From contig JALHQO010000003.1 of assembly GCA_022841905.1 (NCBI GenBank), forward strand, positions 1-44,235: a stretch of DNA of 44,235 bases. Reading direction: 5' to 3'. The notes under the pieces were generated by a model that was not told the origin of the DNA, searched no databases, and saw only the letters and a program-made list of their open reading frames with translations. The stretch is from Hyphomonadaceae bacterium (GTDB taxonomy: Bacteria; Pseudomonadota; Alphaproteobacteria; Caulobacterales; Aquidulcibacteraceae). Both the position numbers and the translations under genes were made by a program. Shown here in pieces: positions 1 to 3,941 of the stretch. The first letter of the stretch is position 1; the number at the start of each line of letters is the position of its first letter.

Positions 1-79
1 CGCGCGCGAGCCCCGAAGCGGACATGCCGCGCCGCTCGGCCATCGCATCAATCGCCCGCCAGATATGAGAGTGCTGCAT
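1..79 (-). CDS. HTH (S24/XRE-type) repressor, N-terminal fragment
   Basis: The frame starts at the ATG at 79-77 and runs off the left edge, giving 26 residues that begin MQHSHIWRAIDAMAERRG. The pattern IWRAIDxxAxxxGxSxSGLAR is what I know from the N-terminal helix-turn-helix of alphaproteobacterial LexA-like S24 repressors. Such a protein would bind DNA and usually also carry a C-terminal autoprotease domain, which lies outside the window. It points away from pyrD, with the mobile element inserted between them. The family call rests on a short stretch; a plain XRE regulator is the alternative. Confidence 0.55.
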   Translation of the reverse strand, partial: MQHSHIWRAIDAMAERRGMSASGLAR

Positions 80-106
80 GGGCGGCGATGATATCCGGCA
101 ATTCTG

Positions 107-117
107 GATTATCAACC
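107..117. repeat. Left copy of 11-base direct repeat flanking the insertion
   Basis: GATTATCAACC occurs here and again at 2752-2762 in the same orientation, just outside the two terminal inverted repeats. The simplest reading is a target-site duplication. The right copy is one base away from the inverted-repeat end, so the exact border is uncertain by one base. IS1595 elements usually make 8-bp duplications, so 11-12 bp is longer than expected. Confidence 0.6.
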
Positions 118-144
118 TAATTATAGACTTCGCGCCACAAGGCT
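118..144 (+). repeat. Left terminal inverted repeat
   Basis: The sequence begins TAATTATAGACTTCGCGCC. It matches the reverse complement of 2724-2750 at 23 of 27 positions, with mismatches at repeat positions 9, 14, 15 and 25. A perfect 12-bp palindrome, GGCTTTAAAGCC, overlaps its inner end at 141-152. Confidence 0.65.
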
Positions 145-318
145 TTAAAGCCTTGATTTCAAACGTAAATACCTCTGACTAATAACGCAAGCCTCTGGAA
201 AACTTAGAGAAAAATATTCCTAGGCGTTTGTGGTCTCAAACACATTTTTTCCTAGGCCGAACTCGTATTCCTTCCAGCCTAGCCATGTGCGATGAGTTGG
301 ACTCTGCCCGCAAAATTG

Positions 319-990
319 TCATGACGCCTCGTTCGGTGGAGGCGGCGTATCAGCGTTGGCGGGAGGCGCTAGTTGAGGAGTCTGCTGAGGGATTGCCTTG
401 GGCAGACTCGACGTCGGAGCGGTTATTTCGAGAGTTACGCCGTGAGTTTTCCGCGCATCAGGCGTCACCTGTTTCATGTCCATAGTGAAGAGGTGAAGGA
501 AAGCGCCGTGTTCGAAGAGGGTGAGCGAGTGCACCGTTTTCGCCGTAAAAGCGCCCCCCTGCGCCAAGCTAGAGAGATCCTGCATCGAGCGAAGCTCGAT
601 GATGTCAGTCTGCTTGTCGTGCAGGATGAATCGATGCGCGAGATAGTTGCGAACGGTCAGAATCGGACCCTCAAAATGCTTGATGCGCGCCGCAAAGTTC
701 GGACCGATGGTGATGTTGTTGCGCTTAGATATCGTGCGGAGGCGCTCGATCTTCGCTCGCGGCGACATGTTTTTGATGAGATCGCCGAAGGCGGCGAAAT
801 CGTGCGCTCCACTGGCCCAGCAGAGAAGCCTGTCGAAGTGCGACTCCATCCCCCCGAACCACTGAAAAAAGTACCCGATGGTCGCGTAGTGATAGAGGCC
901 ATCGCGCTCCAACAGGAAGCGGCGATGCTCAACAAGATCGTATCCAGGATCATCGACGGCGGGCGGATAGGTGAGGACGTAGTCAGTCAT
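319..990 (-). CDS. HEPN-like protein of unknown function, element cargo
   Basis: This is a 223-residue protein. Residues 30-60 are aromatic-rich and probably helical (YHYATIGYFFQWFGGMESHF). Residues 75-120 are helical and contain R114-N-Y-L-A-H119. That fits the Rx4-6H motif with a polar residue after the arginine, which marks the active site of many HEPN ribonucleases. The last 45 residues are proline-rich and probably disordered. The start codon at 990-988 overlaps that of the plus-strand 47-residue gene, so each leader lies inside the other gene. It sits inside the IS1595-type element. HEPN proteins often act in toxin-antitoxin or abortive-infection systems. That role is inference here: only one motif is visible, and many HEPN-fold proteins are not toxins. 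Confidence 0.7.
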   Translation of the reverse strand: MTDYVLTYPPAVDDPGYDLVEHRRFLLERDGLYHYATIGYFFQWFGGMESHFDRLLCWASGAHDFAAFGDLIKNMSPRAKIERLRTISKRNNITIGPNFAARIKHFEGPILTVRNYLAHRFILHDKQTDIIELRSMQDLSSLAQGGAFTAKTVHSLTLFEHGAFLHLFTMDMKQVTPDARKTHGVTLEITAPTSSLPKAIPQQTPQLAPPANADTPPPPNEAS

Positions 991-1132
991 GTCTAAAACC
1001 CCGAAAAACGATCAATACAGCGAAGAAGAAACGAAGCGGCGCGCCGAAGAAGCGCTACGCGGCGCGTTCAAAACTCCGCCAGTTCACGAAAAGAAAGGCG
1101 CGCGGGAGCCAAAGCCCCCGCGCAAAAAATGA
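989..1132 (+). CDS. Small charged protein of unknown function, element cargo
   Basis: A 47-residue frame starts at ATG 989 and ends at TGA 1130-1132. The sequence has an acidic and basic helix (QYSEEETKRRAEEALRGAF) followed by a proline and lysine-rich tail (TPPVHEKK...PKPPRKK). I recognise the pattern 'SEEETxRRxExALRxxxxTPPxPxxxK' from short unannotated proteins common in Rhizobiales and relatives, often near mobile DNA. GAGG at 973-976 lies 12 bases before the start. The gene is head to head with the HEPN-like gene, start codons interlocking at 988-991. An antitoxin or partner role is possible but unproven. Confidence 0.6.
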   Translation: MSKTPKNDQYSEEETKRRAEEALRGAFKTPPVHEKKGAREPKPPRKK

Positions 1133-1323
1133 CCGTCGGCGCTGTGCTGCACGAGATTGAGAGATGTTTCTCGTCGCTAACTGCGGTCGAGGCCGTCAGC
1201 CTCTCCGACCGTCTACTTGCTGTGATACATGAACAATCGACGTCTGAAGTTGCTCGATCGCTTTCACAATTTCCAACAGCGCAATCGTTTCATTGTACGC
1301 CTTTGGATCTGAGCGCGGACTGA
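1129..1323 (+). CDS. Possible small coupled ORF, unknown function
   Basis: A 64-residue frame starts at ATG 1129, overlapping the TGA of the preceding 47-residue gene (ATGA), the usual arrangement for translational coupling. The first half (HEIERCFSSLTAVEAVSLSDRLLAVI) looks like amphipathic helix. The second half overlaps a minus-strand frame (1196-1375) that looks at least as coding. I do not recognise it. Either frame or both could be real. Confidence 0.35.
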   Translation: MTVGAVLHEIERCFSSLTAVEAVSLSDRLLAVIHEQSTSEVARSLSQFPTAQSFHCTPLDLSAD

Positions 1324-1375
1324 CGAAGCGTTCCAAGTTTTCCTTCAGTGCTTTATTCGCAAGATATAGCGACAT
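1196..1375 (-). CDS. Possible small helical protein, unknown function
   Basis: A 59-residue frame starts at ATG 1375-1373 with a purine-rich GAGGA ribosome-binding site nine or so bases upstream. The product (MSLYLANKALKENLERFV...ETIALLEIVKAIEQLQTSIV) looks like two helices with coiled-coil spacing. It converges with and overlaps the 64-residue plus-strand frame. No family recognised; it would be a further cargo frame of the element. Confidence 0.45.
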   Translation of the reverse strand: MSLYLANKALKENLERFVSPRSDPKAYNETIALLEIVKAIEQLQTSIVHVSQQVDGRRG

Positions 1376-1491
1376 TAGGTGTCCTCGTTCTCCAACTGGA
1401 CTCCTTGACTGTGAGGCGCGGCGCAGCGGATAAATCCGAGTCAGTGACCGGCGGGATTGAGGCGAGTCCAAAGCTCCTCAGTCCGTCGAAA

Positions 1492-1525
1492 CGGGGCGGC
1501 CTTTCCTGGAAGTCGGGCCGCCCCG
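1492..1525 (-). terminator. GC-rich hairpin downstream of the transposase
   Basis: CGGGGCGGCC (1492-1501) pairs perfectly with GGCCGCCCCG (1516-1525) around a 14-base loop. On the minus strand the stem is followed by GTTTCG, a weak T-rich stretch. Its position downstream of the transposase frame fits transcription termination, though other structural roles within the element are possible. Confidence 0.4.
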
Positions 1526-1614
1526 AATCGCTCACTTTCCATTTTGCCTTTCGGATAAATGTGGAGTCGAGTCCCGGTTGTATTCGCAGCCGACTCGATC
1601 CGCTCGCGCAACAA

Positions 1615-1785
1615 TCAGCGTTCGTCCTCGAACAAATCGCCGGTCGCTGAGGGATCAGTCGCGTCTTTCAGCAGGCGCGCTTTGCGGCGCAACGCACGCA
1701 GCGCGACGCGCTTAGCCTTAGCCGCACGCTTCAAGCGCGCGACTAGGTAATCATGGGGCGGCTGTCCCGTCAGTCCGCCGATAGG
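1615..1785 (-). other. Lys/Arg-rich frame after the transposase
   Basis: This open frame overlaps the last 35 bases of the transposase gene in another frame and stops at TGA 1617-1615. From a possible TTG at 1734 it would give 39 residues: a basic helix (LKRAAKAKRVALRALRRKAR) and an acidic tail ending GDLFEDER. The composition looks protein-like. There is no ATG start and no clear ribosome-binding site. It could be a small cargo gene, a frameshifted extension of the transposase, or decayed sequence. Confidence 0.25.
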
Positions 1786-2704
1786 TCAGGCGCTTGCCTT
1801 CCGCGCCTTCGATGGCGAGTTGAGCGCGCTGCGTATCGGTGAAGCCCAGCTTGGTGCGGGTGTTGAAGCGAAACTCGAACTCGCTGACGTAGCGGTGCAA
1901 GTGCTTTTCGTCGCAGTGCTGATAGACGCCCGACATGCCCTTTTTGAACACGCCGAAGAAGCCTTCGGCGCTGTTGTTGTGAACGTCGCCGCGAACGTAC
2001 TCGCCAGCGGTGTGCTTGACGGTTTCGTGCGCGGCAAAGGTTTTGCCGATGCGCGTGTACAGCGAGCTTTCGTCAGTGTGCAGGCGCGATGCTGGGTCAA
2101 CATTCGCAGTGACGATCTTTTCGACGGTGATGCGATCGGCTTCGGCAACGTGGAAAACGCGCGCTTGGCCACCACGCTCAACGAGCGCCACGATAGGACG
2201 CTTGTTGGCAGGGCCGTGGCCCTTCTTGGACTTGTGAAGTTGGCCGGTCGTGCGCGTGCGCGGCTCCGGGTTGGAGACTTTGCCGTAATAGGTTTCGTCG
2301 GCCTCCACGACCTGACCGGCGCCGCCCATCGGGCCGACAAGGCCGCCATTCGCCATCGCAAGGCGAATGCGGTGGCAGAGAAACCAAGCGGTCTTGTACG
2401 TCACGTCCAACGTGCGGTGCAGCTGGTGAGCGCTCATGCCCTTCTTCGATGAAGCCATGAGATAGAACGCCATCACCCAGACATTGAGCTTGATGTGCGT
2501 CGCTTCCATCACCGTGCCGGTGGTGGTGGTGAAGTCCTTGCGGCACTCTTTCGCGCCGCAGCGATAACGGCCTTCGCGCTTGGTCGCGTACTCGGCGCCA
2601 ACGACGCCGCAATGCGGGCAGACGCGACCATCCGGCCAGCGCAGCGCCTCGATGTACTTGCGGGCTTCGGTTTCGCTCTGGAATTGGGGGGCGTCGAATT
2701 TCAT
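1751..2704 (-). CDS. IS1595-family transposase
   Basis: This 317-residue protein catalyses cut or copy-and-insert transposition of the element. An N-terminal zinc ribbon (CPHCGVVGAEY...YRCGAKECRKDFT, about residues 30-60) matches the IS1595/ISXO2 group. The motif MASSKKGMSAHQLHRTL with KTAWFLCHRIR follows. The DDE/DDN catalytic core has VEADETYYG, HTDESSLY and HNNSAEGFFGVFKKGM. The end GKRLTYRR is also typical, so the protein appears full length and intact. It starts at ATG 2704, about 47 bases inside the right inverted repeat end, with its likely promoter inside that repeat. Confidence 0.93.
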   Translation of the reverse strand: MKFDAPQFQSETEARKYIEALRWPDGRVCPHCGVVGAEYATKREGRYRCGAKECRKDFTTTTGTVMEATHIKLNVWVMAFYLMASSKKGMSAHQLHRTLDVTYKTAWFLCHRIRLAMANGGLVGPMGGAGQVVEADETYYGKVSNPEPRTRTTGQLHKSKKGHGPANKRPIVALVERGGQARVFHVAEADRITVEKIVTANVDPASRLHTDESSLYTRIGKTFAAHETVKHTAGEYVRGDVHNNSAEGFFGVFKKGMSGVYQHCDEKHLHRYVSEFEFRFNTRTKLGFTDTQRAQLAIEGAEGKRLTYRRTDGTAAP

Positions 2705-2710
2705 GAGCCA

Positions 2711-2739
2711 AATCTAGCTATTCAGGCTTGTGGCGTCAA
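2711..2739 (-). promoter_or_regulatory. Predicted transposase promoter in the right repeat
   Basis: On the minus strand, TTGACG (2739-2734) and TAGATT (2716-2711) are separated by 17 bases, just upstream of the transposase ATG at 2704. This fits a sigma-70 type promoter overlapping the terminal inverted repeat, so transposase binding to the end could repress it. The left repeat lacks the TTGAC element. Confidence 0.4.
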
Positions 2740-2750
2740 GTATATAATTA
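2724..2750 (-). repeat. Right terminal inverted repeat
   Basis: Read on the minus strand it begins TAATTATATACTTGACGCC and matches 118-144 at 23 of 27 positions. The inner part holds the -35 hexamer of the predicted transposase promoter. Confidence 0.65.
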
Positions 2751-2751
2751 T

Positions 2752-2762
2752 GATTATCAACC
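2752..2762. repeat. Right copy of 11-base direct repeat
   Basis: GATTATCAACC, the same as 107-117. With the following TA the identity reaches 13 bases, but those two bases coincide with the start of the left inverted repeat. Likely target-site duplication. Confidence 0.6.
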
Positions 2763-2894
2763 TAGTAATAGGAATAAAATCCAAGCGGTTAGCCGCGCTA
2801 CACGCTGCGGTAGAGAATGCGTGCGCCTCAAAAGTCTTGCTATGCGCCGCCGCGTGAATCGGCCACGCAACAGATCGTGAGCGGCTTTCACGAC

Positions 2895-3941
2895 ATGTCC
2901 ACGCGCGCGCTGCGCCTGATCGATCCGGAGACGGCGCACCACGCTGCGCTTCTGGGTCTTCGTTCGGGCCTGGGTCCGCGCGCGCGCGCCGACCGCTATC
3001 CGCGTTTGCGCACGACGCTGGCCGGCCTTGATCTGCCCAATCCGATCGGCATGGCGGCGGGCTTCGATAAAAACTGCGAAGCGCCGGACGCATTGCTGGC
3101 GTCGGGGTTTGGCTTTGTCGAATGCGGCACGGTCACGCCGCGCGCGCAGGAAGGCAATCCGCGGCCGCGCATCTTTCGGCTGAGCGAAGATCGCGCCGTG
3201 ATCAACCGGCTCGGCTTTAACAATAAGGGCCTTGACGAGTTCGCCGATCGCTTGAGCGCGCGCGCAGGCAGGGGCGGCATTGTCGGCGCCAATGTCGGCG
3301 CCAACAAGGATAGCGCCGATCGCGCCGCCGATTATGTGCTGGGCATGGGCAAAGTGTGGGGCCACGCCGCTTACGTCACCGCCAATATCTCATCGCCGAA
3401 CACGCCGGGTCTGCGCGGGCTGCAAGAACGCGGCGCGTTGGAAGAATTGCTCGGCCGCATGCGCGAAGCGCGCGTCGCGCTGGAAGCCGCGCATGGGCGC
3501 CGGCCGCTCTTCTTGAAGGTGGCGCCCGATCTCGACGAGAGCGCCATCGACGATATTGGTGATCTCGCGCTGCAGTTTGGGCTCGATGCGCTGATCGTTT
3601 CAAACACCACGATCCAACGCCCGCCGCATCTGACATCGGACAATCGCGAAGAAACCGGCGGGCTCTCTGGACAACCGCTGTTTCAGATTTCGACGCATGC
3701 GCTCAGGCTGTTTACGCAAAAGCTCGCGGGCCGTTTGCCGCTGATTGGCGTCGGCGGCGTCGAGAGCGGTGCGACGGCTTTGGCCAAGCTCAGAGCCGGG
3801 GCGAGCGCGGTGCAGCTCTATTCGGCGCTGGTCTATCAAGGGCCGGGCTTGGTGGCGCGCATGCTCGACGAACTCGACGGCTTGCTAGCCGCCGAGGGCG
3901 TCGATTCCGTATCCGAGATTGTAGGCGTCGAAGCGCGTTAG
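2895..3941 (+). CDS. pyrD: Dihydroorotate dehydrogenase (quinone), class 2
   Basis: This flavoprotein oxidises dihydroorotate to orotate in pyrimidine synthesis and passes electrons to membrane quinone. Visible class 2 marks are MAAGFDKNCEAP, RLGFNNKG, NISSPNTPGLRGLQ (with the catalytic serine), the substrate-contacting NTTI, GLSGQPL and the phosphate-binding GVGGVESG. From ATG 2895 the protein is 348 residues, the usual size, beginning MSTRALRLIDPETAH as homologues do. The frame is open further upstream, and a GTG at 2877 is the main alternative start. The mobile element ends 145 bases upstream and may have changed its promoter. It converges on mlaC, the stop codons overlapping in TTAG. Confidence 0.95.
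   Translation: MSTRALRLIDPETAHHAALLGLRSGLGPRARADRYPRLRTTLAGLDLPNPIGMAAGFDKNCEAPDALLASGFGFVECGTVTPRAQEGNPRPRIFRLSEDRAVINRLGFNNKGLDEFADRLSARAGRGGIVGANVGANKDSADRAADYVLGMGKVWGHAAYVTANISSPNTPGLRGLQERGALEELLGRMREARVALEAAHGRRPLFLKVAPDLDESAIDDIGDLALQFGLDALIVSNTTIQRPPHLTSDNREETGGLSGQPLFQISTHALRLFTQKLAGRLPLIGVGGVESGATALAKLRAGASAVQLYSALVYQGPGLVARMLDELDGLLAAEGVDSVSEIVGVEAR

Follow-up and report, generated by a model that had tools for sequence, protein, structure and literature searches.

The window, as the whole stretch of 44,235 nucleotides is called here, is positions 1 to 44,235 of contig JALHQO010000003.1 (C3) of a Hyphomonadaceae bacterium (assembly GCA_022841905.1; G000 below). Close to its left edge lies a transposon of the IS1595 family with cargo genes, between a gene for an S24-domain repressor and pyrD. 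The initial annotation had proposed this arrangement from the letters of the window, and domains, ends, an empty site and like-built relatives bear it out. What it overlooked is the chief point, the position of the element: the transposon is located in the promoter of the S24 gene, a gene that runs on into another contig (C7), and relatives of the element are found again and again at this promoter and at that of gafY. Very probably, this is an IS1595-family transposon with small, variable cargo that inserts by sequence into TAGGA-N6-TCCTA, a palindrome that is found at the S24 and gafY promoters and matches the repeats of RogA-bound promoters in Caulobacter. The features needed first are these:

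1-79, minus strand: 5' part of the RogA-like gene for an S24-domain repressor; the remainder is on C7, whose copy matches Peptidase_S24 at 1.1e-22
106-117: left copy of the target, or operator, O1, GG[ATTATCAA]CC (empty-site and junction comparison)
108-115: left copy of the 8-bp target-site duplication, ATTATCAA (junction comparison)
116-2752: the transposon, 2637 bp (ends, relatives, empty site)
116-141, plus strand: left terminal inverted repeat CCTAATTATAGACTTCGCGCCACAAG, 22 of 26 bases as in the right repeat
1751-2704, minus strand: IS1595-family transposase, 317 amino acids (aa) (Zn_ribbon_IS1595, DDE_Tnp_IS1595, NF033547)
2711-2739, minus strand: promoter-like TTGACG (2734-2739), 17 bp, TAGATT (2711-2716), a consensus match by eye
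2727-2752, minus strand: right terminal inverted repeat, read inward CATAATTATATACTTGACGCCACAAG; its terminal bases are TG, in most relatives GG
2751-2762: right copy of O1, TG[ATTATCAA]CC, one base off the palindrome; duplication at 2753-2760
2771-2782: operator O2, GGAATAAAATCC, 20 bp from O1 start to start; the insertion site in two further genus members
2817-3941, plus strand: pyrD, the right flank (Pfam and NCBIfam profile matches)

Ends of the element and its duplication

The 27-base arms first described are present (118-144 and 2724-2750, 23 of 27 identical), as is the direct repeat GATTATCAACC at 107-117 and 2752-2762; the ends that had been set at 118 and 2750 are not exact, the true borders being 116 and 2752. 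The 26-base arms at those borders (116-141 and 2727-2752) agree at 22 positions; among 500 random arms, each tried at 205 offsets, the best reached 20 and the mean was 13.9. A 12-base repeat, GGATTATCAACC / TGATTATCAACC, encloses the 8-mer ATTATCAA (108-115 and 2753-2760). What had looked like an unusual duplication of 11-12 bp is the 8 bp usual in the family (PMC8101967); the repeat is longer because target and inverted repeat have GG/CC in common around the 8-mer.

The transposase, taken from the outset to be intact, is an open frame over 317 aa with IS1595 domains above the cut-offs: its Pfam matches to Zn_ribbon_IS1595 and DDE_Tnp_IS1595 have values of 5.7e-13 and 1e-34, and NF033547 of NCBIfam gives 190.7 bits (cut-off 75). 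From its stop codon to the left end there are 1635 bases, in keeping with the 1.6 kb estimated earlier. The promoter-like elements are predicted to start out in the right inverted repeat and to read toward the transposase gene.

The comparison with an empty site, proposed along with the initial annotation, has a clear outcome. A member of the genus, G037 (PyrD 99% identical over the longer match; flanks 96% and 94% identical), has a single GGATTATCAACC with matching borders and reads ...CTGGATTATCAACCTAGTAATAGG... across the site. In its own genome, the element gives a single match. C7 and the window contig overlap by exactly 119 bases (the end of C7 is window 1-119), and C7 stops at the final base that filled and empty alleles share; with the two alleles present together in the sample, an assembler would be expected to break off at this point. 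This is a hint that the sample held a mixed population of filled and empty alleles, although a site-pattern search of the window assembly found no empty-site junction. The pointers to a mobile element are indirect: empty close relatives (G037 of the window genome and G059, the sister of G057) and the end of C7 at the allele split.

A transposase search gave 70 loci; ends were sought in 64 of these and in the window, the other 6, which matched in part, being set aside. Of the 65 elements, 48 were delineated (at least 7 of 8 duplicated bases) and 17 were not, partly because contigs end. Terminal repeats of the window type were found in 47 relatives. Perfect 8-mers occur in 47 of the 48 and perfect 12-mers in only 32, on which count a 12-bp duplication is rejected; part of the 8-mer result comes by selection, because agreement at 7 or more of the 8 bases was required for entry. 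The mismatch in the 12-mer is confined to the outer two bases per side in 15 elements and lies inside the 8-mer in one (L027). L045 and L048 have an inverted repeat starting with GG at a GG[N8]CC target, so that the 8-mer alone is duplicated. Junctions read GG[N8]CC on both sides in 33 of 48, on one side in 7 (the window included) and on neither in 8.

Some elements have company. In L010, the 8-mers adjoining the ends are mutual reverse complements (ACTATATT / AATATAGT); perhaps the two ends belong to different elements. The flanks of L016, L033 and L053 contain a second transposase of IS1595 type, and in L016 a further element end adjoins the same 12-base palindrome, which fits renewal of the target by each insertion.

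Insertions at the S24 and gafY promoters

The repressor switch is known from Caulobacter crescentus. RogA is a helix-turn-helix S24 protein and a repressor of gafYZ, whose products activate the gene transfer agent (GTA); chromatin immunoprecipitation detected it nowhere but at gafYZ and CCNA_02002, the promoters of which each contain two GGAA-N4-TTCC inverted repeats (PMC9632790). GafY is homologous to domain IV of DnaA (PMC9632790), and GafY with IHF activates gafYZ and the GTA cluster (PMC11150451). Like Caulobacter crescentus, the hosts considered here have an S24 repressor gene, gafY/gafZ and GGA-N6-TCC promoter palindromes; they differ in that the putative operators serve as transposon targets.

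The 48 elements were collected by transposase similarity, not by place, and their flanks were then placed by tblastn (so that distances refer to the tblastn match rather than to an established start codon). An element end lies within 100 bp upstream of an S24 gene in 10 of the 48 and within 200 bp upstream of gafY in 14; three more are probably near gafY (L033 and L053, with the second IS1595-type transposase on the gafY side, and L030, for which the MucR side only is seen). The other 21 are elsewhere, including L009, which is 1.1 kb from an S24 gene. The flank genes recur across hosts (such as Hyphomonas, Caulobacter, Brevundimonas, Methyloceanibacter, Methyloligella), and in the members tested against Pfam they match Peptidase_S24, Bac_DnaA_C, DUF6456 and ROS_MUCR; DUF6456 was found for L004 and not for the neighbour of L017. 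Bac_DnaA_C and DUF6456 are also found in the gafY-like and gafZ-like genes of the window genome. The S24 gene is the sole strong S24 match there (the other full match, in a 233-codon frame, is weak, E 1e-4); it is called RogA-like because of its domain, this uniqueness and its operators. The window genome keeps these three genes and the palindromes though it has no match to TIGR02217, which we take to be a GTA marker; as a control, TIGR02217 matched one of 14 genomes, that of Caulobacter vibrioides.

Within the genus, the S24 promoter is readable in 28 genomes and has two palindromes, O1 (GGACTTTCAACC and like) and O2 (GGA-N6-TCC and like), with 20 bp between their starts in the window, as in the majority of the empty promoters. 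Six of the 28 are filled: at O1 in G000, G039 (L002), G045 and G052 (L003), and at O2 in G031 and G057 (L028). The elements of G031 and G057 both lie in the reverse orientation, and that of G031 carries an open reading frame (ORF) that looks HNH-like by eye. On a tree of 27 S24 genes (G053 was left out, its gene being split), the six filled states need six changes; counts per group are unchanged between the S24 trees at 5% and 95% bootstrap. On the transposase tree, the hot-spot labels are scattered, with 18 changes. The gafY gene was matched in 27 of 30 genus genomes, and IS1595-type ends are found at the operators of G045, G046 (L004) and G053; the promoters of G047 and G049 were unreadable and that of G051 partly readable. 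In G053 (L202, L204), the S24 gene matches in two frames, and the same genome has an element in gafY O2. In G473 (L263), the match to gafY is split into two parts some 17 kb from each other, which would fit interruption by a large insertion.

Across the order, 20 of the 30 best S24 loci match GG[AT]-N6-[AT]CC, and 28 of the 30 best gafY loci of 200 genomes have TAGGA-N6-TCC upstream; the palindromes are therefore conserved, and mostly empty.

The target itself is seen when the empty sites are joined: the profile is symmetrical, TAGG-A-N6-T-CCTA, and the 21 elements located elsewhere alone give one much alike, tAGGAatatatTCCTa. By sequence comparison, the target GG[A-N6-T]CC contains the RogA repeat. 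The profile from the 21 elements reaches at most 8.9 over 41,415 window positions outside the element. It gives the first gafY operator (O1) 18.8 in G000 and 17.8 in G036; in the empty S24 promoters of G037, G059 and G042, it gives O2 11.2, 15.2 and 15.5, and O1 7.9, 7.4 and 6.8. Where O1 is filled, the scores are 7.9 (window), 5.1 (L002) and 7.1 (L003); six background positions reach 5. Such sites are rare. The window genome (3.56 Mb) has 7 occurrences of GGAWWWWWWTCC (2 of the reversed control) and 2 of TAGGAWWWWWWTCC, one at the S24-pyrD promoter and one at that of gafY. Over 30 genomes of the genus, TAGGAWWWWWWTCC gives 36 matches and the reversed motif 4, and 20 of the genomes have any; the 30 matches given as loci come to 26 distinct places, of which 8 are at S24/pyrD, 12 at gafY/SufE/MucR and 6 at neither.

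Cargo and the left end

The part of the element between the transposase and the left end holds the following:

207-222, minus strand: operator-like site in the left end, minus-strand TAGGAATATTTTTCTC, found by profile score; putative in function
285-485, plus strand: small left-end ORF, MCDELDSARKIVMTPRSVEAAYQRW..., by eye like the 'TPEMIEAG' ORFs of relatives, outside the search pattern
319-990, minus strand: cargo gene, 223 aa, tentatively HEPN-like by motif (R114-N-Y-L-A-H119)
989-1132, plus strand: small ORF, 47 aa, with motif RRAEEALRGAFKTPP (TPP-type), recurring in relatives

The cargo gene and the TPP ORF of the window begin on opposite strands, their starts overlapping in one CATG. The cargo protein has the HEPN motif RX4-6H (R114-NYLA-H119), and this R and H are invariant in 18 aligned cargo proteins (17 from the 48 elements and one from L207), picked partly for the motif. 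The conservation is suggestive of HEPN and no proof. The window protein has no match in Pfam or NCBIfam; no HEPN protein is among 5 Foldseek matches or 15 VIA-align rows, so that structure search lends the fold no support; and a search of 60 family genomes and 385 class genomes gave no homologue except the protein itself.

Passenger genes are known in the IS1595 family. The initial annotation had called this cargo set unusual, which holds for the main cargo gene, in that it varies from element to element, and fails for the small ORFs, since ORFs of the same kind recur in relatives. The TPP-type ORF was gathered from 24 of the 48 elements, with a less similar version from 3 more; against Pfam, the 27 gave one weak match (0.028), in a single ORF. 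A 'TPEMIEAG'-like stretch is found in a left-end ORF of at least 12 elements (a loose pattern, read by eye). Among 55 selected cargo ORFs, Pfam domains found more than once are DUF3800 (3), HNH (2), HNH_5 (2) and DUF4145 (2); DUF7689, MT-A70, GmrSD_N, PIN_10, MtlR, Abi_2 and others were matched singly. PADLOC recognized 18 families, each in one of the 55 proteins and none of them in the window protein, and NCBIfam 4 families.

Some left ends carry sites resembling the operators. In 7 of the 48 elements, the window included, a site with a score of 8.5 or more lies 92-141 bp in from the left end, a placement that stands out but was judged after the fact; inside the elements overall, there is no clear excess of operator-like sites (19 of 48 against 13.8 expected). 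At 207-256 of the window, a TTGTGG core is enclosed by two TTCCTAGG motifs 32 bp apart, and L002 and L003 are alike; this is possibly a structured or operator region of the left end. In L003, and not in the window, the left-end repeat region has a guide-RNA-like match to the element's own target.

How the address may be chosen

The repeated, independent insertions in the same two switches suggest a transposon family that has a regulatory switch as its address. In the mechanism proposed here, the transposase would read the palindrome directly and cut inside GG[N8]CC, with duplication of the 8 central bases; where the inverted repeats begin CC, both junctions would then again read GG[N8]CC. Each side of the inserted element would thereby carry an operator-like palindrome, with the promoter still beyond it (33 of 48 by sequence); the right junction of the window would have lost its palindrome after insertion. 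RogA of these hosts may well bind the palindrome, to judge from the S24 gene, the gafY/gafZ-like genes and the conserved sites. There are few such sites in a genus genome, mostly those of S24 and gafYZ; the elements would therefore land there repeatedly. The element would gain an address that is conserved, rare and harmless, coding genes being avoided, and the host may tolerate the insertion since it loses neither its operator nor its promoter.

Several observations weigh against this account. At the 30 best S24 loci from 299 genomes of the order, no promoter has an IS1595-type end (by eye), and end patterns place one at just 2 of 30 gafY promoters (G591, G505). Of the inner branches of the S24 tree, 13 of 24 are weak. 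On the transposase tree, the labels are clustered beyond chance (shuffled mean 23 changes; as low as 18 in 3 of 200), and there were therefore fewer events than elements. The S24 O1 sites score just 5.1-7.9 and yet received 4 of the 6 genus insertions; so weak a site being so heavily used, sequence alone may not be the whole story. The window is itself not among the 33 elements with two palindromic junctions, its right one reading TG...CC; 17 of 65 elements are without delineated ends, and the 6 partly matching loci stand aside. As to the switch, the RogA-like label and the operator role are read from sequence in these hosts, a search for the single family TIGR02217 gave no match in the window genome (a 99.4% complete assembly), and in Caulobacter a second repressor, CdxB, also binds the gafYZ promoter (PMC13236601).

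A cautious form of the same explanation does without the repressor: the transposase prefers AT-rich palindromes between GG and CC, and RogA operators are simply the best of these in GC-rich genomes. This form is slightly more likely than not. The profile from the 21 elements already selects gafY O1 and S24 O2, 20 of the 26 motif places in the genus are at the two promoters, and no step in the data needs RogA. It accounts less well for the weak S24 O1, used 4 of 6 times in the genus, and for the operator-like sites near the left end in 7 of 48 elements, though the overall count of those sites (19 against 13.8) is to be set beside the latter.

Alternatively, RogA or an open operator takes part, transposition being favoured by release of RogA or helped by bound RogA. 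The use of the weak O1 site, the operator-like sites within left ends and the GG[N8]CC at both junctions in 33 of 48 would all suit this idea; against it, 21 elements use the motif without an adjoining S24 or gafY gene, and the window genome gives no hit to TIGR02217, presumed to mark GTAs. Participation of this kind is unlikely. A bolder version is more doubtful still: the elements would be parasites of the GTA switch, with the RogA operator as address, a jump on release of RogA, operators rebuilt at the junctions for host control, left-end genes repressed by RogA, GTA particles, or the decision to lyse, used for spread or survival, and HEPN-like or nuclease-like cargo that acts when the GTA or a phage-like state is on.

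The pattern could also be one of survivorship, in which insertion is wide and elements persist only in these dispensable promoters. At both promoters, the insertions are outside genes and the palindrome is mostly kept on both sides, as this would have it. However, elements beyond the hot spots have the identical target motif; therefore, the target is chosen before selection acts, and survivorship is improbable as the explanation. Least probable is a single ancestral insertion between S24 and pyrD, inherited since: the window element, L002 and L003 do share O1, orientation and related transposases, but the six changes on the S24 tree reject it, the closest relative of the window genome (G037) is empty, G031 and G057 use O2 with other transposases, and the cargo differs.

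The elements agree with the IS1595 family in transposase domains, terminal inverted repeats, 8-bp duplication and the carriage of passenger genes, and depart from it in their narrow palindromic target, the repeated use of two regulator promoters and the recurring small ORFs. They resemble Tn7-like transposons in having a conserved chromosomal address, cargo and a harmless insertion; they are unlike them in having one DDE transposase, with no target selector noticed, and an address that is like a repressor operator rather than a gene end. A partial literature search, covering titles and the starts of abstracts, found neither a transposon aimed at RogA operators nor such target specificity in IS1595, and PMC9208149, on the statistics of insertion sequence genes and their hot spots, has nothing on S24 or gafY promoters in the part covered.

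The odd-looking 12-base repeat has proved a trap, being an ordinary 8-base duplication within a palindromic target. If the account proposed here is true, a simple, one-transposase DDE element with a narrow, conserved target would have a new way of reaching a safe place. Such an element would be a possible tool for addressed insertion. The GTA control regions of Alphaproteobacteria would be marked as hot spots for mobile DNA, and the transposons would be a sequence handle for finding RogA-like operators. Whether mobile elements exploit gene transfer agents would then become a question for the bench.

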